Part shown: positions 25,318 to 41,257 of the stretch, one piece after another
How positions within the stretch are numbered: the first letter of the stretch is position 1
Layout of the letters: each line of letters begins with the position of its first letter
Source of the DNA: Hyphomicrobiales bacterium
GTDB lineage: Bacteria; Pseudomonadota; Alphaproteobacteria; Rhizobiales; Beijerinckiaceae
NCBI GenBank assembly: GCA_019075865.1
Contig: JAGXAN010000002.1
Coordinates: 186,001 to 250,000 of the forward strand
Direction: 5' to 3'
DNA: 64,000 bases
Notes under the pieces: model-generated
Seen by the model: the letters and a program-made list of their open reading frames with translations, nothing else
Databases searched by the model: none
What the model was told of the DNA's origin: nothing
Program-made: the position numbers and the translations under genes

Positions 25318-25342
25318 AACGCTCAGAGGGGTCGAAAGTTCC
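25318..25342 (-). promoter_or_regulatory. EcfG-type promoter of dps
   Basis: On the minus strand GGAAC (25342-25338) and CGTT (25321-25318) are separated by exactly 16 nt, the consensus of EcfG (sigma-ECF15) promoters. The -10 lies about 60 nt before the dps ATG. Confidence 0.85.
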
Positions 25343-25379
25343 GGTCGATGGCCATCAACCGGCCGTTATTCCGATGGCA

Positions 25380-25648
25380 CCGGCGCGCTGGCGCTGGCCG
25401 CGCGTAAAAGGGTGCAGCCAGACCTCATCCTTTTCGACTAAAACCGGCCCAACAGTATCGATGGATGGCAGGTCATATCCTGTTTGCGCCAGAAATTGAG
25501 ACGGCAGGTTCCGGCCATCGTCTTGACAGGGGACATGACCGCACAAACCATGCACGATATTTCAAAGCTTGGGTGCCGGTATCTGAGCAAGCCGGTCAAG
25601 ACGGTGGACCAGATGCGGCAAGTTCAAAGGCTATTCGATCTGCCTTGA
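25380..25648 (+). pseudogene. Receiver-domain remnant with a nonsense codon
   Basis: In one frame the text reads like the second half of a response-regulator receiver domain: ALALAARKRVQPDLILFD (phosphoacceptor Asp region), a TAA at 25439-25441, then the DG-x-x-VI segment, RRQVPAIVLTGDMTAQ (conserved Thr) and YLSKPVK (conserved Lys), ending at a TGA at 25646. The TAA stands where relatives have Tyr, so one base change explains it. The N-terminal acidic pocket is not recognisable upstream; that part holds the dps promoter. The gene is dead. Confidence 0.65.
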
Positions 25649-25696
25649 AGCCGTGCGATAGAGCCTTATTTAATACGATTAACAGGAATTTTGAAA

Positions 25697-26260
25697 ATGG
25701 CTGTTGAGGAACCAAAATTTACCAGCGTGCGCCGCGATGGAAAATTTGAAGTCCGGGATTACCCGGCTATCGTCGCGGCGGAAGTCACGGTGACCGGGGC
25801 GCAGGGTGAGGCGGCCCGCAAGGGCTTTCGCCTGTTGGCCGGTTATATCTTTGGCGGCAACAAGCGCAAGCAAAGCATCGCCATGACCGCGCCGGTGGCG
25901 CAGGTGCCGACCTCGGAAAAAATTGCCATGACCGCACCTGTCACCCAAACCCAATTGGGCGATGCGTGGGTTGTGCGCTTCACCATGCCCAGCGCCTTTA
26001 CCTTGGCAACTTTGCCCGAACCCAATAACCCGGCGGTGGCGCTGCGCGACGTGCCCGCCGCCCGTTTTGCGGTGCTGGTTTTTTCCGGTCGCGCCAAAGC
26101 CGATGTGGTTGCAACGAAAATGGCCGAGCTTGACGCTTGGGTAAGCGCGCAGAATTTAACCAAGACCGGTGCCATCTCGCTTTCGCAATATAACCCGCCC
26201 TGGACCCTCGGGTTCATGCGCCGCAACGAAGTTATGGTGCCCATAGCGGCAGGCGATTGA
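25697..26260 (+). CDS. SOUL-family haem-binding protein
   Basis: The 187-aa product belongs to the SOUL/HBP family: it starts EEPKFTSVRRDGKFEVRDYPAIVAAE, has the repeat-like IAMTAPVAQ and IAMTAPVTQ segments typical of the family, and ends NPPWTLGFMRRNEVMVPI. Bacterial members are thought to bind haem or other tetrapyrroles; the physiological role is unclear. No signal peptide is visible. The ATG at 25697 is preferred over a TTG two codons earlier; AGGAA lies upstream. Confidence 0.85.
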   Translation: MAVEEPKFTSVRRDGKFEVRDYPAIVAAEVTVTGAQGEAARKGFRLLAGYIFGGNKRKQSIAMTAPVAQVPTSEKIAMTAPVTQTQLGDAWVVRFTMPSAFTLATLPEPNNPAVALRDVPAARFAVLVFSGRAKADVVATKMAELDAWVSAQNLTKTGAISLSQYNPPWTLGFMRRNEVMVPIAAGD

Positions 26261-26335
26261 GCGTATTTCGCAAGTAAATTCATGTGCCGGGGCATTTCAT
26301 CGGGCGGTAGCGCGCTGCCAGCTGTCAGAGGCCCC

Positions 26336-26776
26336 TCAGGGCGACTCTTCCTCTTTCCCGCGTGCACTGTCAGTCTGTGTTTGGCTGGTTGCCAGCGCTT
26401 GCGAGATCATCGAGACGAGCGCCGTCATTTCCTTCGCCAGAGCCAGCAGGTTTGATGTTCGGTCCAGCAATTGGCTGCCGCCTTCTGCCCGCGTTTCATC
26501 CTTGGCGCGCGGTTTGGCGAAGGCTCTTTGGCCAATCCCCCAAGATACGGCCGCCGCAGTGAGCGCCAGAATGACGGTGCCATGGCTCGACAGAGCCCGC
26601 GAAATTCTCGGATCGATCTGCTCACTTACCTGCCCGACGATGCTGCGGGCGGCGTTCTGAACCAGATTGATCGGCTCCAACTCGGCAATCAACGCCTCGC
26701 GGGAGGTGGCAATTTCGCAGCGCAGCGTAGCGGCGATGGCCTTCAGCTGCTTCAAATGCAGATCAGGATCGGACAT
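26336..26776 (-). CDS. Hypothetical single-span membrane protein
   Basis: The 146-aa product has an N-terminal helix with paired Glu and Arg (LRCEIATSREALIAELEPINLV), one membrane segment near residue 70 (GTVILALTAAAVSWGIG) and a polar tail. The layout resembles DUF3618-like partners of the DUF883/holin-like stress cassettes, but I cannot assign the family firmly. It overlaps the holin-like gene by 14 bp and is second in an operon behind an EcfG-type promoter (27240-27264). A membrane-associated stress role is inferred from that. Confidence 0.65.
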   Translation of the reverse strand: MSDPDLHLKQLKAIAATLRCEIATSREALIAELEPINLVQNAARSIVGQVSEQIDPRISRALSSHGTVILALTAAAVSWGIGQRAFAKPRAKDETRAEGGSQLLDRTSNLLALAKEMTALVSMISQALATSQTQTDSARGKEEESP

Positions 26777-27164
26777 GCAAGCCGCTCCGTGTCAGCAACC
26801 GGGCGCTTTTGCGCAATTCCGCCATCGTTTGCGGCAGGCTGAAATTGAGACCCCGCAACAAGGCCAGCGCGTGGCGTATCGCAAGATACGCGATCAACGC
26901 CATGGCAACGGCCAGTGCGAGCGCGGCTAGCCATGGCGACAATCCCCATTCGATGATCGACAAAAGCAGGGCCGTCAGCAAAAGTCCAAAAGCCCCGAGG
27001 CCGATTACCGCAGCCAGCACCAACCACACCAGTGTGTGCAGCGCCCTGGCGCGTTTTTCAGCTATTTCAGCGTTAAATATCGTTAGCTCAACTTCCAGCA
27101 AAGCCAATGATTTCTCGGCGATCTCGCTGAAAAGTCTTGCGGGTGAGGCTGGCGGTCTATTCAT
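26763..27164 (-). CDS. Holin-superfamily-III/YqjE-like membrane protein
   Basis: The 133-aa product has a basic, amphipathic N-terminus (RLFSEIAEKSLALLEVELTIFNAEI), two membrane helices at about 45-70 and 75-97, and a short basic tail, the plan of YqjE / 'phage holin family' (DUF1469) proteins. Despite the family label these are usually chromosomal envelope-stress genes next to DUF883 proteins, as here. An exact EcfG promoter precedes it. It is transcribed divergently from the DUF883 gene. Confidence 0.75.
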   Translation of the reverse strand: MNRPPASPARLFSEIAEKSLALLEVELTIFNAEIAEKRARALHTLVWLVLAAVIGLGAFGLLLTALLLSIIEWGLSPWLAALALAVAMALIAYLAIRHALALLRGLNFSLPQTMAELRKSARLLTRSGLHVRS

Positions 27165-27239
27165 GGTGCAATTCCAAACTCTTCAAGCGATTGCCAAACG
27201 CACACGACCGAACAACCCATAAGCCCTGTGCAGTTCAGA

Positions 27240-27264
27240 AACGCAGCTTGGGTCAAAAAGTTCC
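27240..27264 (-). promoter_or_regulatory. EcfG-type promoter of the holin-like operon
   Basis: On the minus strand GGAAC (27264-27260), a 16-nt spacer and CGTT (27243-27240) match the EcfG consensus. The -10 is about 76 nt before the ATG at 27164. Confidence 0.82.
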
Positions 27265-27292
27265 CCAACCCGCCATATTTGAGAGGCGGGCG

Positions 27293-27317
27293 GGAACCAC
27301 TGGCGGGTGAACGCGTT
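27293..27317 (+). promoter_or_regulatory. EcfG-type promoter of the DUF883 gene
   Basis: GGAAC (27293-27297), a 16-nt spacer and CGTT (27314-27317) match the EcfG consensus, 52 nt before the ATG at 27369. It is back to back with the opposing site at 27240-27264, so the divergent pair shares control. Confidence 0.85.
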
Positions 27318-27368
27318 AGGCTTGCGACGCGTCTGTCACGAATGACGCGATATCAGCAGGAGTTCAAC

Positions 27369-27707
27369 ATGAGTGCACCGACCCCGGCAGAAGAAGCCTT
27401 CCATGATTTCAATCAATTGCGCGCCGATCTCGCCAGTCTCAAGGACTCGGTGGCGGCCCTGTTGAAAGAACAAGCCAAATCCGCATCCAGCACGATTTCG
27501 GATTCGATTTCCAACAGCGGCGATCAGATCAATGCGAAAATGGCGGATCTGAATGGCGCCGCCAAACATGCGGGCGACCAAGCCGCCGCCGGCTTGCGAT
27601 CGGCCTCGCATGATCTGGAGGCGACCATCAATCACAATCCTCTGACCGCCGTGCTGATCGCCGCCGGTGTAGGCTTGTTGTTTGGCATGTTGGGAGCGCG
27701 AAACTGA
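27369..27707 (+). CDS. DUF883 (ElaB/YqjD-like) membrane-tethered protein
   Basis: The 112-aa product has a long helical N-terminal part rich in Ala, Ser and Asp (heptad-like FNQLRADLASLKDSVAALL) and one C-terminal membrane helix (NPLTAVLIAAGVGLLFGML-G), the plan of ElaB/YqjD. In E. coli relatives of this family tether ribosomes to the membrane in stationary phase. AGGAG precedes the ATG at 27369; the frame open to 27228 crosses the promoter and is not used. Stress control through EcfG is inferred from the promoter. Confidence 0.82.
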   Translation: MSAPTPAEEAFHDFNQLRADLASLKDSVAALLKEQAKSASSTISDSISNSGDQINAKMADLNGAAKHAGDQAAAGLRSASHDLEATINHNPLTAVLIAAGVGLLFGMLGARN

Positions 27708-28075
27708 AGGCTGGATGCCCTCAACTCGCCAATTCCCCGACCCTTCGCCTTGAATGGCCGCACCTCGCCCAACCGAGCGGCGGCCATGCGGTGCGCGGCA
27801 AAAGCCCGTTGATCGCGTCGCTTCAAATCGGCGCATGAACGGGCTATGTCTTGTGTAATGCCCGCGTCGCCGCCTAGGGGGAAGCGCAAACAATCTCGCA
27901 TGGGCTATGATGATCCAGCTTGCGACGCGCAAAATCAGGCAATGCTCCAATCGGAAGGCGCCGGGATTTTGGGCCAATCCATTAGCCCCGCAAGGGTGCG
28001 CGTATTCGGCGCACCCCCGTTCCGGTCATTCGACGCGATCTTTCACGCGTTCGATAATGGATCAACCAATCAAAG
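27708..28075. other. Gene-free stretch with one GC-rich stem-loop
   Basis: No convincing gene or RNA is seen here. At 27994-28016 a perfect 8-bp inverted repeat (GGGTGCGC and GCGCACCC) encloses a 7-nt loop, 60 bp past the stop of the minus-strand zinc-ribbon gene and about 290 bp past the DUF883 stop. It could end either transcript, but no T-run follows. Confidence 0.4.
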
Positions 28076-28276
28076 TCAGTTGTATCTGTGATGATCGTTT
28101 GGCGCATAAGCATCGACGGGAATCGAATAGGATTGTTCGTTTCCACATTTGCTGCAACTAAATACGCTCTTTTTCACACCCATGAATGCGTTGGTGGTAT
28201 CGATATTCTTGAGCTGGAGCAGGCCACCGCAGCGGCGGCACCTGGAGGAGGGCGGTGGTTCTATGGTCCTGCGCAT
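28076..28276 (-). CDS. Small zinc-ribbon protein
   Basis: The 66-aa product has two CxxC knuckles about 25 residues apart (CRRC and CSKC) with a central VKKSVFSCSKCGNEQSYS, a typical zinc ribbon. Comparable small proteins occur widely in Hyphomicrobiales with no known function. It is preceded by an exact EcfG promoter at 28337-28361, which supports that it is a real, stress-induced gene. Nothing overlaps it on the other strand that looks real. Confidence 0.75.
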   Translation of the reverse strand: MRRTIEPPPSSRCRRCGGLLQLKNIDTTNAFMGVKKSVFSCSKCGNEQSYSIPVDAYAPNDHHRYN

Positions 28277-28336
28277 GGGAACGCCTTTCAGTTAAAGCTG
28301 GCGGTCAAACTCGAACCGCGCATGTGACGAATGGCT

Positions 28337-28361
28337 AACGTCGAACGTAAGAATTGGTTCC
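28337..28361 (-). promoter_or_regulatory. EcfG-type promoter of the zinc-ribbon gene
   Basis: On the minus strand GGAAC (28361-28357), a 16-nt spacer and CGTT (28340-28337) fit the EcfG consensus. The site sits in the 100-bp gap right after the stop of the glucan synthase gene. Confidence 0.82.
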
Positions 28362-28376
28362 AAAGAATCTGCCCGA

Positions 28377-31300
28377 TCAGCCCATCCTGACTTTGATTTG
28401 ATGCTGAGCGCCGTCGTCGCCCAGCTTGATCTGCAGGGGCTGCGCGTTGATTTCCACGCCATCAAAACTGGCAAAAGCAATGCCGCGACTAACGCCCGCA
28501 GGATTCTCGACTTCCACCGTGAAGCGCGTGCCGCCAACCTCGAGTTCAAGGCTGAAGCCTTTCCAGTTGTGCGGGATGCAGGGGTCAAGGTGCAGCACAC
28601 CGGAGAGCAGCCGCAACCCTAATATGCTTTCCACGCCCGCCCTCTGCATCCAGCCGGACGAACCGGTGTACCACGTCCAGCCACCCCGCCCGATATGCGG
28701 GGCGCAAGCATATATGTCAGCGGCAACCACGTAAGGCTCGACACGGTATTTCAATGCCTCTCCCCGATTTTTGGCGTGATTTATCGGGTTGAGCAAGTCG
28801 AACAGGGCCGCCGCTTTGTCGCCTTGGCCAAGTTTGGCATAGGCCAGCACCGACCATAGGGCGCCATGGGTATATTGCCCGCCGTTTTCACGAATGCCGG
28901 GCGGATATCCCTTGATATAACCGGGGTCCTGCGTCGTGTATTCAAACGGCGGGGCAAAAAGCAGCGCCAGCCCCACATCCGGTTTTATCAGTTCGCGTTC
29001 GACGCTGGCCATGGCCTGGGTGGCACGCGCAGGCTCGCCCGCGTCCGAAATCACCGCCCAGGATTGTGCAATCTGATCGATCTTGCATTCCTCGCTGGCG
29101 GCGGAACCCAGCGGCGTCCCATCATCGTAAAAGCCGCGACGATACCAGTCGCCATCCCAGGCTTGCGCTTCAATGGCCGTTTGCAGGCGTTGCACATGCG
29201 AACGCCAGTTCTGCGCGCGGTCGATGTCGCCGCGTGCTTCCGCAAAATCCGCAAAGCGGGAAAGCGCCGCGCAATGCAGCCAGGCCAGCCAAACGCTCTC
29301 GCCCTCGCCTTTCTCGCCAACCCGGTTCATGCCGTCATTCCAGTCGCCGGAGCCCATAAGCGGCAAGCCATGGCGACCCAGTGAAAGGGACTGGTCAAGA
29401 GCCAGTGCGCAATGCTCGTAAAGACTGGCATGACGATCGGAGATCATCGGTTGAAACAGATTGTCATTCTCGTCAGGGCGCAGCCATTGCCCTTCCAGAT
29501 AAGCGATGCCTTCATCCAGGATCGCCAGATCACCCGTGGCTTCGATATAATGGTGGGTGGTGAATGCCAGCCAGGCCTTGTCATCGGTGATGCGCGTGCG
29601 CACCCCTTGCCCGGTGTTGGGCCACCACCAATGCTGCACATCACCCTCAACAAACTGACGCCCTGCTGCGCGCAACAAATGGGCGCGAGTCAGGTCGGGG
29701 CGCGCGTTGACCAGAGCCATTCCATCCTGCAACTGATCGCGAAAGCCAAAGGCACCGCTGGCCTGATAAAAGGCCGAGCGCGCCCAAACCCGACAGGCCA
29801 GCGTCTGGTATAACAACCAGCCATTGAGCATGATATCCATGGCCCGATCGGGTGTTTTAACCTGAACCTTCCCCAATATCTGTTGCCATTGCTGGCGCAC
29901 CGTGCCGAGCACATCATCAAGGCTTGCCGCACGATATCGCACAATGAGTTCACGCGCGGAATCCACCGATGCTGCCTGCCCAAGCACAACCGAAAACGAA
30001 CGCGTTTCACCGGGCGCAAGTGTCAGTCTGGTTTTCAACACGCCGCAAGGGTCGAGACCACCACCGGTTTTGCCCGATAGCCGGGATGAGCCACGAAGCC
30101 CCGCGGGGTGCGCAAGTGTCCCGTTCCGGCCAATGAACTCGCGCCGGTCACCGGTTGCCTCCGTTTGCAGGCCGCCCAAATCGAGAAAGGCGACGCGTCC
30201 ACCAAACCCGGGGGTCCAATTATTGCGGGCCAGCAAGGCACCCGTCTGTTCATCCATGGAGGTCATCACATGCGCGGCAGATGTGCTGCGCGACACGCCA
30301 AGCACAAATGCGGCAAATGCGGTAACCGACAGGTGACGCGGATACGCAGAAAGATTCTTGAGCACCAGTCGCGAGATTTTGACTGGATCATTGACCGGCA
30401 CAAATTGGGTCAACTCGACATGAATGTCGCGCGAGGCATGGGAGAAGCGGCTATAGCCAAATCCGTGATGCGCCAGATAGGTGGCGGTTTCATCGCGGCA
30501 GGGTTGCGCGGTTGCGCTCCAAACCTCACTGGAATCCTCGTCGCGCAAATAGATTGCCTCACCCGGTTCATCGCTAACCGGGTCGTTCGACCAAGGCGTC
30601 AACTGGTTTTCGCGGCTGTTGAGTGACCATGTATAGCCCGCGCCTTCGGCCGAAACTTGAAACCCGAAATTCGCATTGGCGATGACGTTGATCCAGGGGG
30701 CTGGCGTCGATTGGTTGGGGCCTTGCACAATCACATATTCGCGGCCCTCGTCAGCAAATCCGCCAAATCCATTGAAAAATTCAAGATGCGGCAGAGAGGG
30801 CGCAGGTGCCGGTGCATGCGCCTTGGTCGGCAATGCTTTGGGTGCGCGCCGGGCCTGCGTCAGCGGCACGCGGTCGAGTTGGTCTTGCAAGCTGCCACGC
30901 TGCCCAACGATGACGACCCGCGCGACGGACAGCAACAGGGCCCGCGTTATCGCCGGCATCAGATCGGCCCGCACCAAAAAAACGCCGCCCGATGTCGCAT
31001 CCCCGCCAATTTTATGGCGCGACTTGTTGCTGCGCACCGCCGTTTCAATGGCGATTTGCAGGTCCTGCACATAAGAGGCATCGCGCTCGTTGATGATGAC
31101 CAGATCGACGCTGAAGTGTTTCATGGTCCAATATTCATGCGCAACCAATAGCTGCCGCGCGAGCGTCATATGCTCGGTATCGCTGATGCGCAGCACCAGG
31201 ATCGGCAGGTCGCCGGAGATACTGAGGCCCCAAAGTCCCGATTGCGGGCCAGCGCCTTGTGCCAAGGCTTCGGACGCCGTTCGCAGAGCCGGCCCCGCAT

Positions 31301-34300
31301 AAATCAGGTGACCGGCAAGCCGTTGAAACAAGGCGGCTTCGGCGGCATCAATCCCGATATGATAAAGCTGCACCTGAGCCTGGCTCCAGGACAGGGTGGC
31401 AGCGCGCACAAATGCGGTTTTATCCTGATGTTTATCAATACAATTCAACAAGTCCTGGCGCGACGGCATGACGATCGTCCAGAACGCAACGCGCCGGGTG
31501 GCACCCGGTGCAACGCGGATGGTCTTGCGGAGCGAAAATATCGGGTCGAGAACGGTGCCCGTGGTGTTGGAAAGCTTGACCCCCTGGCGCATGGCGGCCG
31601 CGGTGTGAATGTTTTGCCCGCGCCCAATGAAACGCGCGCGGTCTGTCTCCAACTCCGTCGCTTCCAGTGTATCGCCGTCCACCACTGCCAGATGGGCGGC
31701 CCATATTTCGGCTTCGGTGGTCGTGCGGCGTCGGCGGGTCGCAATGATCGCATCGCACTCTGGCACATATTCGGTTTCGACAAACAGCTTTGAGAATACC
31801 GGATGGGCAAGGTCGGCAGCGGGCGTGGAGAGTACGATTTCGGCATAGGATGTCAGCTCGATATCGCGGGGCACGGCGCTATCGTTGAACAGGCTGATCT
31901 GCCTGACCTCGGCATTATCCTCTGCCGAAACCAGAATCTCCATTGTAGTGAACAGGGTTCCGTCTCGCCGCGAATATATCGCCCGGTCTTCGTTGAACAC
32001 CACGTCATAATGATCCGCTTCACTGCAACAGGGCTGGTAGCCCGCCGACCATAAAGCGCCAGAATGCTTGTCCCGCAAAAATATATAGGAGCCCCAGTCA
32101 TCGCAGGTGGCATCCTCGCGCCAGCGCGTGATTGCCAGATCACGAAAGCGGCTGTAGCCGGATCCGGCTGCGGTCAGCATGAGGCTATATTGCCCGTTGG
32201 AGAGCAGATGCGTCGCTGGAACCGCTTCATTCGCCGTGAGAATGCGCCGCCCGCCGGGTTGTTCGGTGCTGCGGATGTTCGCCACAGCCTTGGTGCCCGT
32301 ATCCCACCGGCGCGTGGTCGCGACATCGCGTGGCGGTCGCTCCTGCAGCAGAAGTTCGGTGGCTTGCACCATTGGCTCGGCGTGGAAGCGTGCCCGCATC
32401 AGGGAGCCCAGCAGCGCATTGCCAATGGCTAAGATGGTCATGCCCTGATGATGCGCCATGTAAGCTTTGACGACTGCAACGCTTTCACCCTCCGGCAGAC
32501 GGGTAGGGGTGAAATCGAGGCTTTCATAATATCCATAGACCCCACGCCCGCCGAATTTATCGAGCCGGCGAAAATTCTTGGCCGCAGCCTGCGCATCCAC
32601 CATGGCCGCGAGCGCGGTGGCATAGGGGGCGATGACCATATTGGCATCAAGGCCCCGCTTCAGGCCAAGCCCCGGCACGCCAAAATTGGAGTATTGATAA
32701 GTCATCTCGAAATCGCGGACATTATAGGCCGATTCCGAAATGCCCCAGGGAATACCCAAGGCCGCGGTATAGGCGATCTGTCGGCGCACGATCATGCGAC
32801 TGGTTTGCTCGATCAGGCTGCCGGTTGGCGCACGCATGACCAGGGAGGGCATGAGATATTCAAACATCGAGCCCGACCAGGATATCAAGGCAGCATGCCG
32901 GGCAATTTGCACCACATTGCGACCCAGGCGAAACCAATGCTGTGCCGAGACATCCCCCTTGGCTATGGCCAGAAAACTGGCAAGGCGCGCCTCCGAGGCC
33001 AGCAGGTCGTAGCAACTGCCATCCAACGCGTCCTCATGGACGAGATAGCCAATCGATAGCAGCTTGCGATTGGGATCCAGCAAAAATCCGAAGTCCATCG
33101 CCATGGCCAATTCGCGGGCTGTATCCTCAAGTATGCGCAATCGCTGGGCCGCAGAATTGGCGGCGTCCAGAAGCGCACTGGCATCACGTTGGTGGCTATT
33201 TAGGGTCCGGTTGAAGGCGCCAACCCAAAACGTGAGGTGCTCCAGACTGGCAGCCGAAGCACTTTGTGGAATTGCGAGCAGAAGCGCCTGCAAATTCTCT
33301 CCCGCAAGCGCGAGCTCGTCGAGGCCCGTCGTGGTTTTGGATTGGATCTTGGCCAATAACCCCGAGAGGTTTTGCGTGAAGCGCGTTACCTCATCCGGTG
33401 GCGTCGGCCCGGCAAGGACTTTTTGTGCCTCGGTTTGAGCCAGAAGCAGGGTGTCGGTGATACTGGACAGGAAGGAGGCCGGTTGCACCGCCAGCTTCCG
33501 CCACTCGCAGCAAACGCGGGCCAGTGTGATTAAATGGCCTGCCAGATTCCCGCTGTCGACCGAAGACACATATTCTGGCGCGAGCGGTTGCAAGGTCTGC
33601 GTGTCATACCAATTCAGAAAATGCCCGCGCACTCGTGTCAGTTTCAGCATGGTCGCGAGTGTCGCCTCCAGCCTTTCAATGGCTTCCTGCATGCCAATCC
33701 AGCCAAAATCGCGCGCGCTGACCACCGAAAGCAGATAAAGGCCGATGTTGGTAGGAGAGGTGCGGTGTGCCAAAACGGCGTGGGGGTTTTCCTGAAAATT
33801 GTCCGGCGGCAACATGTGGTCGCCTTCCGTGACGAAGGTCTCAAAGAACCGCCAGGTTTGTCGTGCCGTTTGGCGCAATACCAATTCGTCGTCGGCGTTG
33901 ATGGGCACCTGGCCGACGATCACGGATGAAATGCGCGCCCAGCGGGCGATGAACGGGAAATAGGCCCAAAGCGCGATAAACGGTCGCCCGGCTTCGGTTG
34001 GTGGCAGACTGGCCCAGACTGCGATCATCGGGGCAGCCAGCCAGAGCAAGGCGAAGGGCGCTGCCAGCCACCAGCTGGACGGGTGTTCGATGGCGATGAT
34101 GGCCGCGACCAGGCCCAATATCACGGAGCCTGACATGCGTTCGACAAAGCCCAGCACGGTCAGTTTCCGGGCGACCGAGGTCTGCGCATGGGACACCCAC
34201 TCCAGCATGTTCTTCCGCGAGACGAAAAGTCGATATAGCGTGCGAATGATGGCGTCTGCCATCATCCAGGCCTGGTCCCCCAAAAAGGCGATCTGCAACA

Positions 34301-36914
34301 GGTTCTTGGCAATGGCAAAGGCGAAATCAGTGTTGACCGAGCGCAAATGCGCCGCGAAGGAAATGCCGGATTTGGGTGGCAGAATGGCAAAAAAGATCGG
34401 CAGCAATGCCGGCGTGATATTGGCAGCAAGTATCAACAACGTCCAAACCACCGCGGCGTGGAAGGGCAGAAACCAGCCAAATATCAGCGCGATCATCGAG
34501 AGCGGCGCGGTAAGGGTGCGGCGCAAATTGTCGATCATTTTCCAGCGGCCCACTGCCGGAATGGGTTGGCGCGATATAATCCAGGGCAATAATTGCCAAT
34601 CGCCCCGCGCCCAACGGTGCTGGCGCAGCGCCGCCACATCGTAGCGCGCCGGATAATCCTCAATCACTTCGATGTCCGAAGCCAGGCCCGCACGGGCAAA
34701 TATGCCTTCAAACAAGTCATGGCTGAGCATGGTGTCTTCGGGCACGCGGTCCTTCAGCGCCGCCTCGAAGGCATCAACATCATAGATGCCCTTGCCGGCG
34801 TAAGAGCCTTCGTCGAACATATCCTGATAAACGTCTGAAATGGCGGCGGCGTAAGGATCAATACCGTTTTGCGTCGAAAAGATGCGTTGATACAGGGAGC
34901 CCCCTTCGCCTATGGGAAGCGATGGCGTAACGCGCGGCTGGAGTACGCCATAACCCTCCAAAACCCGGCCTGTTGCCGTGTCAAATTTTGGCTTGTTAAG
35001 GGGATGCGCCATCTTGCCAATCAGCTTGCGAACGCTGCCGCGCGGCAGGCGTGTATCGCCATCCAATGTGATGACGTAATGCACCCCCGTGGGCACATTT
35101 TCGCATTCGCTGAAGCCGCCCGTCTCGGCGTCACGCAACATCAGGTTGAGTTGATGCAGTTTGCCGCGCTTGCGCTCCCATCCCATCCAGCAGCCTTCGC
35201 TGGCATTCCACAGGCGTTCGCGATGCAGCAATATAAATCTTGGCCCGGCCAAACCTCTGGCGTAGCGCTCGTTCAGTTCGGCAATGCCGGCCTTTGCAGC
35301 GTCCAGCAATCGGGCATCACCCGGCATGTGCCTGGTGCTGGAATCTGCCCAATCCGATAAAAGTGCAAAATAGATTTCGCCATCCGGGCTGGCCAAATGA
35401 TGCACTTCCAAAGTTTCAATGATTTCGGCAACGCCATCAATCGATGTCAACAAGGTGGGCACCACGACCAGGGTGCGGAGCGACTCGGGAATGGATCCCT
35501 TCAGTTCAAACGCGGGCAGGGCGACGGGCCCTATGGCTTTGACCACCAATATATTGACCAAGCCGACAGCCGATTCGCTGATGGGGATCGCACTCAAAAG
35601 CACCAAAGCCATCAGCCAGCCAAGGCCAAGCCCTGTGCCAGAAAAGGCCCAAACAACCCCGAGCAGAAATCCAAAAATGGCAAGCGCAATGGCTCCCGTA
35701 TAGCCGCCAACGCCAATGGCACGAACCAGGCGTTTGAGCCGGAGCGCTGGCTTGGGGTGAAAGCCGAGGACGCGTTCGAAATTGCGTCGCCCATCGCCGA
35801 TGAGCCAATAACCTGTGCCTCGCCCGTCGGCGACATTGGAGCGCGCAAGCGCGAGCTGCGCGATTTCCGCTTCACTGTGGGGGGCACCGCGCGCCAGTTC
35901 CTCAATGGCGCTACGATAGAGATTGCGGGTGGCAAAATCCATTTTTGGGTAGTCGGGTTCAGCACTCAGCACCCGCTGCACCAAGCTCATGCTTTCGAAC
36001 AGCTCAGCCCAGTCGACGCTGGCAATCATGCGCAGGCTGTTGACGATATTGCTGACAGTGACGGTCGCAGCGCTTTGCCGCAAATGCTCGTCGCCTACCA
36101 CTTTTTCAGGCGTGCTTTCGCGCGCGGCGAGGCTGCTTTCCAGCCAGGTTAGCGCCGGAATCACCCGCTCGTCCTGATCATGCAAGCGCTGCAAAAGCTG
36201 AACGGCAAAAGCATCCGTCACCTGCGTCAACTCAATGCGGGCCAACAGGGCTTTGCCGTCAACGGGCGCGATTGTGGTCGCATTGAGCAGGTCTGTGGCG
36301 AGATCATTGGCTCTGCCACGATCAGAGCGGCTGGTCACGATCAAATCGGCCAGTCGTCGCAGGTTCTCGATCAGGACGATCCGCAAAGTGATCGACAATG
36401 CCCAAAGCTCGCCGATCGTCAGTGGCTGAATTTCCTGATAGGCGACGATAAAGCGGCGCAGAATGTTCGAGTCGTAGCGGCTGTCTGTATGCGCGATAAA
36501 CGCCCAGGCAATGCCGAAAACGCGGGGATAACCGGCAAACGGGCCGTTTTCCAGCTTGGGCAATTGGCGATAATAGCCGGGCGGCAAATCAGACCGCACC
36601 TCGCGAAACTGCTGCTCGACCAGGTGATAATTGTCGATCAGCCATTCGGCGGCAGGGGTGATGGCCTGCCCATCTTCAACCGCCTTTGACATGGCCTGAT
36701 AAGCACCCAGAAGCGCCCCGCCATTATCGGCAAGGCGCGTAGCGAGCGAGGCGAGGCGTCTGGGCCGCGCAACAATCTTTTGCGTGGCAGCCAGGCTTCG
36801 GGCATGTGCCTCCAACCGCTCAATGCCAAACAGCTCTTCACGAATGGCGTTGGTACTGTTCCACGGAGAAGGCATCGTTTGCCCCGTCGAACGTGATTGC
36901 AAAATGTTCAGCAT
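28377..36914 (-). CDS. ndvB: Cyclic beta-1,2-glucan synthase (NdvB/Cgs)
   Basis: This giant inner-membrane enzyme makes cyclic beta-1,2-glucans, periplasmic osmoregulated and host-interaction glucans of rhizobia and Brucella. From the ATG at 36914 it is about 2845 aa, the normal size (the frame is open to 37094). The GT84 part has membrane helices around residues 380-480 and 830-1000, the donor-binding LDGDTRLPRG (near 618) and the QHRWARGDW motif (near 768). The C-terminal GH94-like phosphorylase part, which sets ring size, carries GSGDWNDGMNRVG (near 2523, catalytic Asp) and GYPPGIRENGGQYTHGALW. No frameshift is seen. It stands alone; no ndvA exporter gene is in the window. Confidence 0.95.
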   Translation of the reverse strand: MLNILQSRSTGQTMPSPWNSTNAIREELFGIERLEAHARSLAATQKIVARPRRLASLATRLADNGGALLGAYQAMSKAVEDGQAITPAAEWLIDNYHLVEQQFREVRSDLPPGYYRQLPKLENGPFAGYPRVFGIAWAFIAHTDSRYDSNILRRFIVAYQEIQPLTIGELWALSITLRIVLIENLRRLADLIVTSRSDRGRANDLATDLLNATTIAPVDGKALLARIELTQVTDAFAVQLLQRLHDQDERVIPALTWLESSLAARESTPEKVVGDEHLRQSAATVTVSNIVNSLRMIASVDWAELFESMSLVQRVLSAEPDYPKMDFATRNLYRSAIEELARGAPHSEAEIAQLALARSNVADGRGTGYWLIGDGRRNFERVLGFHPKPALRLKRLVRAIGVGGYTGAIALAIFGFLLGVVWAFSGTGLGLGWLMALVLLSAIPISESAVGLVNILVVKAIGPVALPAFELKGSIPESLRTLVVVPTLLTSIDGVAEIIETLEVHHLASPDGEIYFALLSDWADSSTRHMPGDARLLDAAKAGIAELNERYARGLAGPRFILLHRERLWNASEGCWMGWERKRGKLHQLNLMLRDAETGGFSECENVPTGVHYVITLDGDTRLPRGSVRKLIGKMAHPLNKPKFDTATGRVLEGYGVLQPRVTPSLPIGEGGSLYQRIFSTQNGIDPYAAAISDVYQDMFDEGSYAGKGIYDVDAFEAALKDRVPEDTMLSHDLFEGIFARAGLASDIEVIEDYPARYDVAALRQHRWARGDWQLLPWIISRQPIPAVGRWKMIDNLRRTLTAPLSMIALIFGWFLPFHAAVVWTLLILAANITPALLPIFFAILPPKSGISFAAHLRSVNTDFAFAIAKNLLQIAFLGDQAWMMADAIIRTLYRLFVSRKNMLEWVSHAQTSVARKLTVLGFVERMSGSVILGLVAAIIAIEHPSSWWLAAPFALLWLAAPMIAVWASLPPTEAGRPFIALWAYFPFIARWARISSVIVGQVPINADDELVLRQTARQTWRFFETFVTEGDHMLPPDNFQENPHAVLAHRTSPTNIGLYLLSVVSARDFGWIGMQEAIERLEATLATMLKLTRVRGHFLNWYDTQTLQPLAPEYVSSVDSGNLAGHLITLARVCCEWRKLAVQPASFLSSITDTLLLAQTEAQKVLAGPTPPDEVTRFTQNLSGLLAKIQSKTTTGLDELALAGENLQALLLAIPQSASAASLEHLTFWVGAFNRTLNSHQRDASALLDAANSAAQRLRILEDTARELAMAMDFGFLLDPNRKLLSIGYLVHEDALDGSCYDLLASEARLASFLAIAKGDVSAQHWFRLGRNVVQIARHAALISWSGSMFEYLMPSLVMRAPTGSLIEQTSRMIVRRQIAYTAALGIPWGISESAYNVRDFEMTYQYSNFGVPGLGLKRGLDANMVIAPYATALAAMVDAQAAAKNFRRLDKFGGRGVYGYYESLDFTPTRLPEGESVAVVKAYMAHHQGMTILAIGNALLGSLMRARFHAEPMVQATELLLQERPPRDVATTRRWDTGTKAVANIRSTEQPGGRRILTANEAVPATHLLSNGQYSLMLTAAGSGYSRFRDLAITRWREDATCDDWGSYIFLRDKHSGALWSAGYQPCCSEADHYDVVFNEDRAIYSRRDGTLFTTMEILVSAEDNAEVRQISLFNDSAVPRDIELTSYAEIVLSTPAADLAHPVFSKLFVETEYVPECDAIIATRRRRTTTEAEIWAAHLAVVDGDTLEATELETDRARFIGRGQNIHTAAAMRQGVKLSNTTGTVLDPIFSLRKTIRVAPGATRRVAFWTIVMPSRQDLLNCIDKHQDKTAFVRAATLSWSQAQVQLYHIGIDAAEAALFQRLAGHLIYAGPALRTASEALAQGAGPQSGLWGLSISGDLPILVLRISDTEHMTLARQLLVAHEYWTMKHFSVDLVIINERDASYVQDLQIAIETAVRSNKSRHKIGGDATSGGVFLVRADLMPAITRALLLSVARVVIVGQRGSLQDQLDRVPLTQARRAPKALPTKAHAPAPAPSLPHLEFFNGFGGFADEGREYVIVQGPNQSTPAPWINVIANANFGFQVSAEGAGYTWSLNSRENQLTPWSNDPVSDEPGEAIYLRDEDSSEVWSATAQPCRDETATYLAHHGFGYSRFSHASRDIHVELTQFVPVNDPVKISRLVLKNLSAYPRHLSVTAFAAFVLGVSRSTSAAHVMTSMDEQTGALLARNNWTPGFGGRVAFLDLGGLQTEATGDRREFIGRNGTLAHPAGLRGSSRLSGKTGGGLDPCGVLKTRLTLAPGETRSFSVVLGQAASVDSARELIVRYRAASLDDVLGTVRQQWQQILGKVQVKTPDRAMDIMLNGWLLYQTLACRVWARSAFYQASGAFGFRDQLQDGMALVNARPDLTRAHLLRAAGRQFVEGDVQHWWWPNTGQGVRTRITDDKAWLAFTTHHYIEATGDLAILDEGIAYLEGQWLRPDENDNLFQPMISDRHASLYEHCALALDQSLSLGRHGLPLMGSGDWNDGMNRVGEKGEGESVWLAWLHCAALSRFADFAEARGDIDRAQNWRSHVQRLQTAIEAQAWDGDWYRRGFYDDGTPLGSAASEECKIDQIAQSWAVISDAGEPARATQAMASVERELIKPDVGLALLFAPPFEYTTQDPGYIKGYPPGIRENGGQYTHGALWSVLAYAKLGQGDKAAALFDLLNPINHAKNRGEALKYRVEPYVVAADIYACAPHIGRGGWTWYTGSSGWMQRAGVESILGLRLLSGVLHLDPCIPHNWKGFSLELEVGGTRFTVEVENPAGVSRGIAFASFDGVEINAQPLQIKLGDDGAQHQIKVRMG

Positions 36915-37119
36915 TTCAACCTTTGAATCCTGGTTTAGTTGGGGACGGTCAATGAATTCGCGAAAATAAATCGCCCGGCGAGGCAAAAGGTTGCAATCGG
37001 CACATAATATTTTTGGCTTCTCGCCGAGCTTAGGGAGGCATAGGGTGGTCGATGCTGCGCGTAGCGCTTCAGTTGTCGGTAAATCTGTAGCCAATTTTAC
37101 GGATTTTCAAATGTGCGCT

Positions 37120-37144
37120 GGAACCTTCTCTCATTTGAGGCGTT
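37120..37144 (+). promoter_or_regulatory. EcfG-type promoter of the DUF3309 gene
   Basis: GGAAC (37120-37124), 16 nt, CGTT (37141-37144): exact EcfG consensus, 29 nt before the ATG at 37174. Confidence 0.85.
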
Positions 37145-37173: not shown

Positions 37174-37332
37174 ATGTCTTTGGGAACCATTGTAATCATT
37201 ATCCTGATACTCATGCTGGTGGGCGCTTTGCCAAGCTGGAGTTACAGTTCGCATTGGGGGCATTGGCCGTCGGGTGGCCTTGGTCTTGTTCTGGTAATTG
37301 TGCTCATCTTGGTGTTGTTAGGGCGAATATAG
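37174..37332 (+). CDS. DUF3309-type small membrane protein
   Basis: The 52-aa product is almost all membrane: a first helix (IVIIILILMLVGALPSW) ending in the Pro-Trp typical of DUF3309, a Ser/His/Trp linker and a second helix (GLVLVIVLILVLLGRI). The family is a common EcfG target in Alphaproteobacteria, and an exact EcfG promoter lies 30 nt upstream. GGGAGAG serves as ribosome site; the frame open to 36991 runs through the promoter and is not real. Function unknown. Confidence 0.85.
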   Translation: MSLGTIVIIILILMLVGALPSWSYSSHWGHWPSGGLGLVLVIVLILVLLGRI

Positions 37333-37354: not shown

Positions 37355-38161
37355 TCATGCGGTTTTAAGCTTTGGCTTTTGATTAAAAAACAAAGCCTGG
37401 CTTATTACCGCTTTCACCATTTCGGTGCGGAAGGGTTTGGTGATCAAGAAAGTTGGCTCGGGCCGCTCACCCGTCAGCAAGCGCTCTGGATAGGCGGTGA
37501 TGAAGATCACGGGCACATTATGGGTCTTGATGATTTCATTGACTGCTTCGAGGCCCGAACTGCCATCTGCCAATTGGATGTCGGCCAAAATGAGGCCCGG
37601 GGGGTGGCGGTCGGAGGCCGCCAGCGCTTCGCTTCGGGTTCGAGCCACTTCGGTGACGCGATGCCCCAGGCTTTCCACCAGCGTTTCAATGTCCATGGCG
37701 ATCATCGGCTCGTCTTCGATGATCAAAACATCAGCCGCGATCTGATCGGCCAGTTCCTGACTGGCCTCCGTCACCAGAGCTTCGGCCTCCGGCGTCGGGC
37801 AATCCAATATCGCGGCGATTTGGGCGCCGGAAAAGCCTTCCACGGCACTCAGCAAAAAGGCCACGCGCGGGCGCGGCGTCAAGATAGCGAGGCGTTCCAA
37901 CCCGACGACCTGAAGATTGCCGTTGCCTTTGGCGGCAAGCGGTTCGTCGGTATTGAACGAGACCGAGCTCCATACGCGAAAAAGAGCCTTGTAAAGCGCA
38001 ATTCGCGGCTCGATGGCGGCATCAAATGCCGATGGATCAGCTAAAATGGTCTCAAGGGTAGCCACGGCGTAAGCATCGCCCGCCGGTTGGCTCCCGCAGA
38101 TGGACCGTGCGAAGCGGCGCAGGTAGGGCAGGTGCGGTGATATGGCTTGCGATATGGACAT
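37355..38161 (-). CDS. phyR: PhyR, general stress response regulator (anti-anti-sigma)
   Basis: PhyR is a sigma-factor mimic: phosphorylated, it binds NepR and frees EcfG. The 268-aa product has the two parts in order: an N-terminal EcfG-like domain (residues 1-140, with PYLRRFARSICGSQ and a sigma4-like VAFLLSAVEGFSGAQIAAILD) and a C-terminal receiver with acid pocket Glu149-Asp150-Glu151, phosphoacceptor Asp194 (ILADIQLADG), FITAYPE and ITKPF (conserved Lys). It is divergent from nepR-ecfG, and each direction has its own EcfG promoter in the 250-bp gap. Everything needed looks intact. Confidence 0.96.
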   Translation of the reverse strand: MSISQAISPHLPYLRRFARSICGSQPAGDAYAVATLETILADPSAFDAAIEPRIALYKALFRVWSSVSFNTDEPLAAKGNGNLQVVGLERLAILTPRPRVAFLLSAVEGFSGAQIAAILDCPTPEAEALVTEASQELADQIAADVLIIEDEPMIAMDIETLVESLGHRVTEVARTRSEALAASDRHPPGLILADIQLADGSSGLEAVNEIIKTHNVPVIFITAYPERLLTGERPEPTFLITKPFRTEMVKAVISQALFFNQKPKLKTA

Positions 38162-38214: not shown

Positions 38215-38239
38215 AACGCCGGGGTGCGGGAATGGTTCC
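38215..38239 (-). promoter_or_regulatory. EcfG-type promoter of phyR
   Basis: On the minus strand GGAAC (38239-38235), a 16-nt spacer and CGTT (38218-38215). The -10 is 54 nt before the phyR ATG. It implies positive feedback of EcfG on its own activator. Confidence 0.87.
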
Positions 38240-38286: not shown

Positions 38287-38311
38287 GGAACAAATTGTCA
38301 GCAGGCGCGTT
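38287..38311 (+). promoter_or_regulatory. EcfG-type promoter of nepR-ecfG
   Basis: GGAAC (38287-38291), a 16-nt spacer and CGTT (38308-38311). It leaves a leader of about 90 nt before the GTG of nepR. It implies autoregulation of the sigma factor and its antagonist. Confidence 0.87.
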
Positions 38312-38411
38312 CGTTCGTTTACAAAACCGCATTTTTTTGACGGTGCGCAAAGGCCAGCCTGGAATCGGAAGACGCGCCAATTCGTGATTTTGGAGCCATG
38401 GGGGGAAAGAC

Positions 38412-38702
38412 GTGCAAGACGATGGTAAGGCAAAGGATCGCAAGGCAAAGGAGGCTAAAAAGGACATGATTGTTTCATCATCGTCACTCATCAAGCAAAA
38501 TGGTTCAGCGGGCGCGACTGCCAAGCGTGGGCCGCCGCTCAGCGCCGATATTCAGGCGCGCATCGGACGTAAATTGCTCGAAGTTTATGACGAAGTGCTG
38601 TCGCAGCCGGTGCCGGACCGGTTTTTGCAATTGCTGAATGCGCTCGACGAAAAGACCAAACCGCAGTCGCCGGCAACTGATAAGAAAAGCGACGGTTCCT
38701 GA
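38412..38702 (+). CDS. nepR: NepR anti-sigma factor
   Basis: NepR holds EcfG inactive until phospho-PhyR takes it away. The 96-aa product has a long polar, Lys-rich N-terminus and the NepR core of two helices: IGRKLLEVYDEVLSQPVPDRF-LQLLNALDE, with the invariant PVPDRF. The start is GTG at 38412 behind GGGGGAAAG. The core matches the family closely, and the order nepR-ecfG opposite phyR is the classic locus. The gap to ecfG is 60 bp. Confidence 0.95.
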   Translation: MQDDGKAKDRKAKEAKKDMIVSSSSLIKQNGSAGATAKRGPPLSADIQARIGRKLLEVYDEVLSQPVPDRFLQLLNALDEKTKPQSPATDKKSDGS

Positions 38703-38762
38703 CGGCTTTTTGGCAGGCAAATCCTGCGGGCGGCGCATGACAAACTTGTATGGAGTTGGCCT

Positions 38763-39353
38763 TTGAACGATGTCGCCGCACGAATGAAGAACGACATGCT
38801 CGCCGCAATCCCGGCATTGCGGGCCTTTGCATTGTCCCTCTCCCGAAAGCCGGATCGTGCAGATGATCTGGTGCAGGAAACGTTGATGAAAGCTTGGGCC
38901 AACATGGCCTCCTTTGTGCCCGGCACTAATCTGCGGGCGTGGCTCTTCACCATTCAGCGCAACATTTTCTATTCGCAATATCGCAAACGCCGCGAGGTCG
39001 AGGACGCCGACGGGCACAAAGCCGCGATGCTGTCCTCGCCGCCCGCGCAACTCGATCACATGGATTTTCAGGATTTTCGGATTGCTTTGGACACACTTCC
39101 CGTTGATCAGCGCGAGGCCCTGATTTTGATTGGTGCCTCGGGCATGTCCTATGAGGAGGCGGCGGAAGTGTGTGGTTGCGCCATCGGGACCATCAAAAGC
39201 CGCGTCAATCGTGCCCGTGTGAAATTGGCTGAGATTTTAGGCCTCGACAATTTCGAGGCGGTGCCCCCCGCACCCGATGCGCCTGTCTTTGGCCAGGTCT
39301 CCGCCCAGCCACCGGCAGCCCAAGCCCAAGAGCGGGCGAAGCTGCGGATGTAA
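38763..39353 (+). CDS. ecfG: EcfG general stress sigma factor
   Basis: This ECF15-type sigma factor directs RNA polymerase to GGAAC-N16-CGTT promoters. The 196-aa product has region 2 (DRADDLVQETLMKAW ... RAWLFTIQRNIFYS) and region 4 (REALILIGASGMSYEEAAEVCGCAIGTIKSRVNRAR, given here in family terms: helix-turn-helix for the -35). A Pro/Ala-rich tail of about 35 residues follows. The start is a TTG at 38763; an in-frame ATG seven codons on is the alternative. Eight matching promoters were found in this window. Confidence 0.95.
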   Translation: MNDVAARMKNDMLAAIPALRAFALSLSRKPDRADDLVQETLMKAWANMASFVPGTNLRAWLFTIQRNIFYSQYRKRREVEDADGHKAAMLSSPPAQLDHMDFQDFRIALDTLPVDQREALILIGASGMSYEEAAEVCGCAIGTIKSRVNRARVKLAEILGLDNFEAVPPAPDAPVFGQVSAQPPAAQAQERAKLRM

Positions 39354-39466
39354 ATTTTCATGGAGCGCAGCAACATGGATCGCGGCCCCGGAAACCGGGG
39401 TCGGCATCCCGGAATTTGGGTTTTGGCCCGCCAACATCGCAGGCGCCGAGTGGGAAAACAATCTCA

Positions 39467-41173
39467 ATGCCAAGCTATCTTGATCCAAATGGCATAAAAA
39501 ATCCTGTCACATCAATGCCCGACTTGGTTGCCTTCGACGCCAAGGATTGCAGCCTCCAAGATTTGCGGGCGACGAATTTCCGGCTTTTGGTTGGTGCAAT
39601 CGCCCTGCTGATTGTCTGCGCCGGCTTGGTTTGGCAAGGCTTGATGGGCGACGCCGGCAATTACGCCAGCTTGCTGTCCTTTTTGGGTGTCAGCGCGCTT
39701 GCAGCCGTATTGGTGATCGGAGACCGGAAGGCGCGAAAGATTGTGTTGCAGCGCCGCGCCACACTCAAGGCGTTGTTGAACGCCAATGTCCTGTTGCGCC
39801 TTGCCCAGACTGCCAATGAGATCGCGATTGTCGATTGGGATTGCGCCAATGACCATGCGGTATGGAGCTTGAATTTTGTTGACGTCTTTGGCATTCCAAG
39901 TGCCACTCCGCCCACAAAGACGCCTTATGCGCTCTTCATAGAGCTTGTGCACCCGGATGATCGCTCGCGAATTGACGCGATGCACCATCGGATATTGAAA
40001 ACCGGCGGCACTTTCAGCGAGGAGTTTCGCATCCTGACCTTGACCGGCGCCATCCGCTGGATTGCGATACGGGGCGAGGTCTTTTGCGATGAATATGGCA
40101 CTCCCCAGCGCTTTATAGGCTCAAATTTTGACATAACTGAACGACGCCAGAACGAAGACCAATTGAAACAAAGCCTCGCAATCATTGAACTTGCCAATGA
40201 TGCGGGCGAAATCGGTGTCTGGAATTTCGACAGCCGGACGGGCCGCGGCACTTGGGATGAACGCACGCGCAACATTCTGGGTCTTGCCGCCGCCAAAGAG
40301 AACGTCAATCTCACCCATTTCAAGAATGCCATTCACGAGGATGATCGGGCGCGAACCCGTTCGGTGATCTTGGCTGCGCTGAAAACGGGAGAGAAATTTC
40401 TGGTCGAAGCGCGCGTCTATCGCCCGGATCGCAGCATTCGATGGGTTCGCATCCGTGGCATGGCGGAGATTGATCCCATTTCAAGGCGCGCCATGACCAT
40501 GACCGGGATCATGTTTGACATTACCGAGCGGCGTCAGCACGAGACCCATTTGCGGTTTTTGATGCGGGAGTTGACCCACCGATCGAAGAACCTGCTTGCT
40601 GTGATCCAGGCCATGGCGCGCCAGACGGGCGGAGATTCAACCTCACTGGACGAATTTCAGGCCCGGTTCTCCGCGCGTTTGCAAGGCCTGGCCGCCTCGC
40701 ATGACCTTCTGGTCAATGAGGATTGGCAGGGTGCGGATATTGCCGATATCGTGCGTTCGCAAGTGGGCCATTTCACCGATCAGATCGGTGATCGCTTCCA
40801 CCTTTCCGGTCCTTCCGTTCAGTTGAAGCCGGAAGCCGCCCAAAATGTCGGCCTCGCCTTGCACGAGCTCTCAACCAACGCTGCCAAATATGGCGCATTG
40901 GCCAATGCGACCGGCAAGGTCGATGTTTCATGGCGCGTGGAGGGCACGCCATTGGTGGACCGCCGCCTGGTGATGGTTTGGCACGAAATGGGTGGACCTT
41001 TGGTTACCCCGCCAACCCGCCGCGGCTTTGGCTCCATTGTGACCGAGCGCATCGTTGCACGGGCATTGGAAGGCAAGGTCACCATGGCTTTTGACCCGGA
41101 TGGTGTGACATGGACACTGGAGATTCCGGCAGCCTATATGCTCGCCGATGCCGGCCCATTGCCGCTCAAGTGA
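39467..41173 (+). CDS. PAS-HWE sensor histidine kinase next to the stress sigma locus
   Basis: This kinase is 568 aa from the ATG at 39467 (open upstream to 39416; the ATG at 39512 is also possible). Two adjacent membrane helices (about residues 37-58 and 62-82) anchor it with almost no periplasmic part. Two PAS/PAC units follow (ends NFDITERRQNE and IMFDITERRQHE), then the HWE core: H-box RELTHRSKNLLAVIQAMA, N-box ALHELSTNAAKYGAL and the WHEMGGP motif. HWE/HisKA_2 kinases phosphorylate PhyR in several Alphaproteobacteria, and the position right behind ecfG makes this the prime candidate. A cytoplasmic signal is more likely than a periplasmic one. Confidence 0.9.
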   Translation: MPSYLDPNGIKNPVTSMPDLVAFDAKDCSLQDLRATNFRLLVGAIALLIVCAGLVWQGLMGDAGNYASLLSFLGVSALAAVLVIGDRKARKIVLQRRATLKALLNANVLLRLAQTANEIAIVDWDCANDHAVWSLNFVDVFGIPSATPPTKTPYALFIELVHPDDRSRIDAMHHRILKTGGTFSEEFRILTLTGAIRWIAIRGEVFCDEYGTPQRFIGSNFDITERRQNEDQLKQSLAIIELANDAGEIGVWNFDSRTGRGTWDERTRNILGLAAAKENVNLTHFKNAIHEDDRARTRSVILAALKTGEKFLVEARVYRPDRSIRWVRIRGMAEIDPISRRAMTMTGIMFDITERRQHETHLRFLMRELTHRSKNLLAVIQAMARQTGGDSTSLDEFQARFSARLQGLAASHDLLVNEDWQGADIADIVRSQVGHFTDQIGDRFHLSGPSVQLKPEAAQNVGLALHELSTNAAKYGALANATGKVDVSWRVEGTPLVDRRLVMVWHEMGGPLVTPPTRRGFGSIVTERIVARALEGKVTMAFDPDGVTWTLEIPAAYMLADAGPLPLK

Positions 41174-41232
41174 CAACAGCCCGCGCGGATTGACAGTCTA
41201 TTCATCGTGTATTCTAAAATATATCATCAGAT

Positions 41233-41257
41233 GGAACCTTCGCGAGTTTAGTGCGTT
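41233..41257 (+). promoter_or_regulatory. EcfG-type promoter of the glycine-zipper lipoprotein
   Basis: GGAAC (41233-41237), 16 nt, CGTT (41254-41257), 34 nt before the ATG at 41292. Confidence 0.85.

Follow-up and report, generated by a model that had tools for sequence, protein, structure and literature searches.

Exact-consensus EcfG-type promoters gathered at the phyR-nepR-ecfG locus of a Rhizobiales-like bacterium

We analysed a 64-kb stretch of bacterial DNA (hereafter the window) that carries the genes of the regulators PhyR, NepR and EcfG, and compared the sites matching the EcfG promoter motif GGAAC-N16-CGTT in the window, in its genome and in related genomes. The switch is an ordinary PhyR-NepR-EcfG system, a known kind of system, and the named relatives of PhyR mark the host as Rhizobiales-like. 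Judging from the sequence, the locus likely represents the alphaproteobacterial general stress response, its regulators lying together with nearly all of their exact-consensus targets. The features read from the sequence that point to this are the sites themselves, their apparent confinement within the genome, their counterparts in a congener (G003), the regulator genes, and the lack of detectable PhyR and NepR in two other congeners. Near-confinement of exact promoters to the regulator locus would be an unusual variant, which G003 appears to have in common in its share of local sites, not in its layout.

Exact sites in the window and its genome

The motif GGAAC-N16-CGTT occurred exactly eight times in the window, and every occurrence lay within positions 25318-41257 (the interval, or island). 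In 100 shuffled versions of the window, the mean number of sites was 0.51 and the maximum three. The scan thereby confirmed the eight sites listed in a preliminary description of this DNA, as well as the fixed 16-nucleotide (nt) spacing claimed there. Scanning spacers of 14-19 nt yielded only one extra site, with a spacing of 15 (N15) at 9862, outside the interval, and GGAAC-N16-GGTT was absent from the window (0 sites).

The distance from CGTT to the gene start was 60 nt for dps, 75 nt for the holin-like operon, 51 nt for DUF883, 60 nt for the zinc-ribbon gene, 29 nt for DUF3309, 53 nt for phyR and 34 nt for the glycine-zipper gene. These values rest on chosen starts, not on the longest open reading frames (ORFs), whose starts would put the DUF883 site (GTG 27228) and the DUF3309 site (TTG 36991) within their ORFs. 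For nepR, the distance was 100 nt to GTG 38412 or 154 nt to ATG 38466; nepR of G003 also shows a GTG at the corresponding place. The earlier statement that all sites lie within about 100 nt of a start thus holds with the chosen starts (29-100 nt), and fails for nepR if ATG 38466 is used. Folding of the nepR leader RNA revealed nothing notable (z 1.63).

The whole genome (3.29 Mb in 18 contigs) contained 20 exact sites, eight of them in the interval. The genome-wide enrichment scan proposed in the preliminary description therefore places 8 of 20 sites in 16 kb, with a binomial P of 9e-12 for the 32 kb around phyR, and the clustering of the sites around the regulators proved stronger than claimed. 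Together with the shuffles, these counts led us to reject a chance origin of the cluster. All eight window sites were well placed before genes, given the chosen starts, versus 1 of the 12 elsewhere. Ten of those 12 lie inside coding-like ORFs, one faces no gene (L001), and one (L002) precedes an Nramp-like ORF (label by eye) at a distance of about 20 nt.

Control spacings gave 10 sites genome-wide for N17 and 12 for N18. Hence, the sites outside the island equal background and the excess lies in the island; a freedom of spacing was also rejected, as N17 and N18 showed no excess in this genome. A reversed-pattern control gave 65 + 56 matches versus 10 + 10, which at face value would make the motif rare genome-wide, and was set aside for the spacing controls because its base order differs. 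We also scanned the genome for an extended motif (GGAACHWW, 12-15 further bases, NGTT). It gave 16 sites at spacing 16, seven of them in the island, and 8, 0 and 6 sites at spacings 15, 17 and 18, respectively. Of the nine spacing-16 sites outside the island, six end in GGTT.

Sites around phyR in the congener and in other relatives

The genome of G003 is fragmentary (73% complete), and an exact counterpart stands before the G003 orthologue for seven of the eight promoters. Spacers are identical at 42 of 96 bases over six pairs and at 9 of 16 in the dps pair. One 13-kb G003 contig keeps the order glycine-zipper gene, kinase, ecfG, nepR, phyR, DUF3309 and glucan synthase (61-81% identical) and holds 6 of the 15 exact sites of G003. 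Two further sites lie between the divergent DUF883 and holin-like genes (contig C88) and one before dps (C21); in G003, these two genes and dps with its small neighbour sit among unrelated genes. Another site (C130) precedes a P-type-ATPase-like ORF beside a PRC-barrel gene, and the remaining sites fall within ORFs or have no clear target. The PRC-barrel gene of G003 is split over two contig ends, followed by the exact site before the P-type-ATPase-like ORF. In the window, a one-mismatch site (GCAAC-N16-CGTT, 42710-42734) stands upstream of a PRC-barrel gene at 41749-42513.

We then counted sites by spacing in 1.75 Mb around phyR, drawn from the own genome, 36 relatives and 37 named loci, sets between which species may overlap. 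There were 193 sites at N16 and 69 at N17, versus 3-19 at each of nine other spacings. The relatives alone contributed 130 and 42 sites, the named loci alone 55 and 27. The enrichment of spacings 16 and 17 only, along with the seven counterparts in G003, upholds the earlier reading of the sites as EcfG promoters. In several genomes, such sites precede genes for, among others, PhyR, NepR, CsbD-like, DUF883 and PRC-barrel-like proteins, labelled by eye unless profiled in the own window. Copies of three families were counted in a wider set, which also takes in the entire window and three G003 contigs whose proximity to phyR is not established. Of 22 DUF883 copies, 14 had an N16 or N17 site in the 250 nt upstream, compared with one copy for the nine other spacings; such an N16 or N17 site also preceded 17 of 24 CsbD-like copies (label by eye) and just 5 of 23 DUF3309 copies. 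DUF3309 therefore seems to be a member here and in G003, not generally. Near phyR, EcfG-type promoters are repeatedly followed by genes for small membrane proteins, CsbD-like ones among them (labels by eye).

Searches of 60 genomes, the own one among them, found PhyR (E <= 1e-20) in 38 and NepR (E <= 1e-3) in 36; the NepR search was insensitive, and some PhyR genomes (e.g. G036, G040, G056) gave no match. We took sites up to about 16 kb from phyR as local and counted them in the own genome and in 36 of the 37 PhyR-bearing relatives (G058 was left out). These counts are lower bounds for G003, G004, G027, G030 and G031, whose contigs are short, and cover one of two PhyR loci in G019 and G052. 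The local share of exact sites was 0.40 in the own genome (8/20) and 0.40 in G003 (6/15), versus a median of 0.07 and a maximum of 0.19 in the 35 other PhyR-bearing genomes. Summed over those 35, N16 gave 1551 sites versus 796 for N18, and only 124 were local; some of them (e.g. G005, G014) showed no excess. In the own genome, the excess of N16 over N18 is eight, and the local sites number eight. Local clusters also occur in G012 (15 sites), G036 (8), G054 (8), G034 (7), G056 (7), G006 (6) and G010 (6). Hence, a local cluster by itself is not unique; the confinement of exact promoters is unusual. G012, of the same family, resembles the own genome in its local cluster, the densest found (15 N16 and 7 N17 exact sites in 36 kb), where contig C89 carries two phyR-nepR loci about 18 kb apart (L150-L151). 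Unlike the own genome, G012 also has many scattered sites (88 at N16 versus 18 at N18).

In the congeners G001 and G002, both listed as 100% complete, we found no PhyR (E <= 1e-20), NepR (1e-3), glucan synthase (1e-100) or holin-like protein (1e-3), the searches there covering these four and not Dps, DUF883 or EcfG. Neither showed an N16 excess (4 and 7 sites versus 8 and 9 at N18). PhyR was likewise not found at E <= 1e-20 in 22 of the 60 genomes, some of them listed as 98-100% complete (e.g. G016, G028, G032). This pattern suggests that the general stress response was lost, or is absent, repeatedly among the relatives. A PhyR tree was built from 67 rows (the window, 29 of the matches in relatives and 37 named loci; 11 further relative matches without a locus were not included). 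It pairs the PhyR of the window with that of G003 (support 99) inside a 17-row cluster (95) of mostly same-family genomes. As the tree is rooted at the midpoint, with often weak deeper forks and four long rows, it does not separate vertical descent from old transfer.

Regulators, kinases and candidate targets

The features of the locus are listed in Table 1. The two EcfG-type promoters between phyR and nepR-ecfG are divergent. Profile searches revealed sigma-like and receiver domains in PhyR. EcfG, an extracytoplasmic function (ECF) sigma factor, was assigned by its ECF domains, its operon position behind nepR and an above-cut-off match to the subfamily model NF009199. The kinase downstream of ecfG is likely a PhyR kinase, and the CHASE3-PAS-HWE kinase possibly a second one.

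Table 1. Promoters, genes and neighbouring features of the locus (window positions; G003 is the congener)
Feature	Position	Strand	Evidence and comparison
CHASE3-PAS-HWE kinase	20107..22770	+	PF05227, PF07536, HRSKN (HRxxN); about 2.5 kb outside the interval
Small protein downstream of dps	24424..24678	-	no Pfam match; same neighbour of dps in G003, 62% identity
Dps-like ferritin (DNA protection)	24739..25257	-	PF00210 E 1e-25, above cut-off; 90% identical to G003
EcfG-type promoter of dps	25318..25342	-	exact match; exact counterpart before dps orthologue, G003 contig C21
SOUL gene	25691-26260		without exact EcfG site
Small protein, holin-like operon gene 2	26336..26776	-	no Pfam match; 43% identical partner, same place, G003 C88
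YqjE-like membrane protein (Pfam Phage_holin_3_6)	26763..27164	-	PF07332 E 1.5e-14, above cut-off; 45% identical to G003
EcfG-type promoter, holin-like operon	27240..27264	-	exact match; exact counterpart in G003 C88
EcfG-type promoter of DUF883	27293..27317	+	exact match; exact counterpart in G003 C88; divergent from holin promoter
DUF883 (YqjD-like) protein	27369..27707 (ATG 27369)	+	PF19029 weak, below cut-off; 69% identical to G003
Zinc-ribbon-like protein, 66 amino acids, two CxxC pairs	28076..28276	-	PF17283 weak, below cut-off
Candidate EcfG promoter of zinc-ribbon gene	28337..28361	-	exact match; without comparative support
Cyclic beta-glucan synthase-like protein (GH94)	28377..37094	-	PF06165, PF17167; 74% identical, same place in G003
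EcfG-type promoter of DUF3309	37120..37144	+	exact match; exact G003 counterpart, 29 versus 30 nt from start
DUF3309 small membrane protein	37174..37332	+	PF11752 E 3e-20, above cut-off
PhyR, anti-anti-sigma response regulator	37355..38161	-	PF22029, PF22233, PF00072; NF006623 above cut-off
EcfG-type promoter of phyR	38215..38239	-	exact match; exact counterpart in G003
EcfG-type promoter of nepR-ecfG	38287..38311	+	exact match; exact counterpart in G003
NepR anti-sigma factor	38412..38702	+	PF18557 E 2e-14
EcfG, ECF sigma factor	38763..39353	+	Sigma70_r2, Sigma70_r4_2, PhyR_sigma2; 81% identical to G003 protein, same operon position
PAS-PAS-HWE histidine kinase downstream of ecfG	39416..41173 (longest ORF; start provisional)	+	PF07536; HRSKN = HRxxN; 66% identical, same place in G003
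EcfG-type promoter of glycine-zipper gene	41233..41257	+	exact match; exact G003 counterpart, 34 versus 36 nt from start
Glycine-zipper lipoprotein (label by eye)	41292..41576	+	no Pfam match; 72% identical in G003

These sites and their counterparts lend good support to the prediction that dps, DUF883, DUF3309, the holin-like operon and the glycine-zipper protein belong to the stress response. The zinc-ribbon gene, which the preliminary description lists alongside them, has one site only, and homologues of its protein were found neither in 59 relatives (E <= 1e-3) nor in plasmids. Dps protects DNA; the top NCBIfam match of the ferritin in the window is Dps, under the model cut-off, and the small protein behind it probably shares its transcript. 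The glycine-zipper protein has a weak, below-cut-off match to PdsO, and the Pfam query for DUF883 started at 27363, 6 nt ahead of 27369. The interval is not wall-to-wall regulon. The glucan synthase-like gene, overlooked in the preliminary description, covers 8.7 kb, over half of the interval; neither this gene nor the SOUL gene has its own exact EcfG site. Outside the interval, an IS5-type transposase (17884-19893, minus strand, label by eye) is interrupted by a low-GC (guanine plus cytosine) stretch with a 314-amino-acid ORF (18624-19568, plus strand), whose C-terminus is HNH-nuclease-like (label by eye).

The partner switch, divergent autoregulated promoters and a neighbouring HRxxN kinase are established in other species (PMC8103513), and the locus resembles the systems of Methylobacterium extorquens, Caulobacter (SigT), Sphingomonas melonis Fr1 and Sphingopyxis granuli TFA in having the same three regulators, divergent autoregulatory promoters and such a kinase. 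It also has the promoter of S. granuli TFA, where GGAAC-N16-CGTT is the EcfG motif (PMC7083833). YqjD and YqjE of Escherichia coli depend on sigma-S, and YqjD tethers ribosomes to the membrane (PMC10746276); Pseudomonas PA3040-3042 depend on AlgU (PMC11302039). As in yqjCDEK and PA3040-3042, YqjD/DUF883 and YqjE/holin-like proteins would here be under a stress sigma factor. Here, by contrast, DUF883 (with its weak profile match) and the holin-like gene are transcribed away from each other, from separate EcfG-type promoters as predicted. No occurrence of DUF883 was found in the part of the literature surveyed.

By analogy with these species, stress would cause an HRxxN kinase, likely the one downstream of ecfG, to phosphorylate PhyR, which would then draw NepR off EcfG. 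The freed EcfG would transcribe eight units from the GGAAC-N16-CGTT promoters. Two of these would feed back on phyR and nepR-ecfG, and probably also on the kinase; the others would supply Dps, DUF883 and the holin-like proteins, DUF3309, the glycine-zipper lipoprotein and perhaps the zinc-ribbon protein. Their products may serve mostly envelope and DNA protection. DUF883 and the holin-like operon under EcfG could represent an alphaproteobacterial version of the habit of placing YqjD and YqjE under a stress sigma factor.

Alternative explanations and significance

Several observations limit or weigh against this reading of the locus. When one mismatch was allowed, the window was not enriched, with 17 matches versus 12.9 expected and 17 of 100 shuffles reaching 17. 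The genome total of 20 exact sites is not above the shuffle extrapolation to 3.29 Mb (0.51 per 64 kb, i.e. about 26), so that only the local and spacing comparisons carry weight. Moreover, only exact-consensus sites were counted well, degenerate sites being scanned in part. GGAACHWW-N13-GGTT has six sites genome-wide versus 0, 0 and 1 at spacings 15, 17 and 18, and EcfG promoters tolerate GGTT in M. extorquens (PMC4814048) and weaker boxes elsewhere. The zinc-ribbon gene appears to be the weakest member, having a single site without comparative support. Finally, the island corresponds to three modules on separate contigs of G003, and tight clustering is therefore not conserved even within the genus. 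The layouts may differ because the modules came together here or because they dispersed in G003. We looked for the neighbours of the G003 modules in the window, in an 18-kb stretch of the own genome and in a 20-kb stretch of G002, and found only an EpmA-like gene (own genome) and a transaldolase-like gene (G002), not adjoining.

It is quite conceivable, although we lean somewhat away from it, that EcfG acts genome-wide via degenerate promoters and that the island simply holds the most consensus-like ones of an ordinary scattered regulon. This would deny only the confinement and is compatible with real promoters at the locus. Published EcfG regulons are large: about 200 genes are affected in S. 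melonis (PMC6599016), the regulon of S. granuli comprises 79 operons (PMC7083833), and that of M. extorquens 490 genes (cited in PMC8103513). Unlike these, the genome studied here shows a surplus of exact promoters at the regulator locus alone; the literature surveyed, with subscription literature mostly outside its scope, revealed no EcfG regulon limited to a single locus. Two of the six GGTT sites have promoter-like positions, one 140 nt ahead of a phasin-like ORF and the other about 60 nt ahead of a 355-amino-acid ORF, whereas the other four lie within ORFs. A few scattered EcfG targets outside the island are possible, and weaker scattered promoters may exist. In contrast, the exact motif is in genome-wide excess in the 35 relatives, mostly away from phyR, and not here; exact sites therefore mark scattered regulons there but not here.

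We consider it very unlikely that these promoters are read not by EcfG but by some other ECF sigma factor that uses a GGAAC -35 box. Such boxes are common to further ECF factors, for example GGAACTT for E. coli RpoE (PMC8103513), but the 16/17 spacing with CGTT, the divergent phyR and nepR-ecfG promoters and the enrichment around phyR in many genomes fit EcfG, and N16 is not in excess in the two congeners where PhyR and NepR went undetected. That the clustering has no functional meaning, frequent rearrangement having brought the modules together or the locus having been acquired as an island, seems rather improbable. Gene order is poorly kept between congeners where compared, the response is patchy within the genus, and the IS5-type transposase lies about 5 kb from the interval. 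Yet the GC content of the interval (0.55-0.60 in 2-kb steps) matches that of the window (0.58), PhyR groups with its congener inside the mostly same-family cluster, and several relatives also hold 6-15 local sites. The window contains no transfer RNA gene, and no integrase was found among the 20 window ORFs profiled with Pfam, the remaining ORFs not being profiled. When 19.3 kb of the right flank was used to look for an empty site in G001 and G002, the island-adjacent flank had no clear counterpart; the stronger G002 matches fell in the more distant portion of the query and did not form a single collinear run.

For the genus, we tentatively propose, while regarding it as the less probable case, that the response could be a self-contained cassette that is gained or lost. 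The whole direct EcfG regulon would then roughly coincide with the regulator locus, pieced together from modules that lie apart in one congener and absent as a unit from others. Published EcfG regulons are not only large, their essential core is also unclear, and a genome with exact promoters at about eight units would offer a natural minimal regulon. The pile-up of EcfG promoters around phyR in many genomes, with DUF883 recurring among their targets, provides a usable annotation rule. The locus also points to proteins whose function is unknown and can be tested (DUF883, DUF3309, the holin-like operon and the glycine-zipper protein), and it makes directly testable what would cause a general response to be acquired or lost as a whole.

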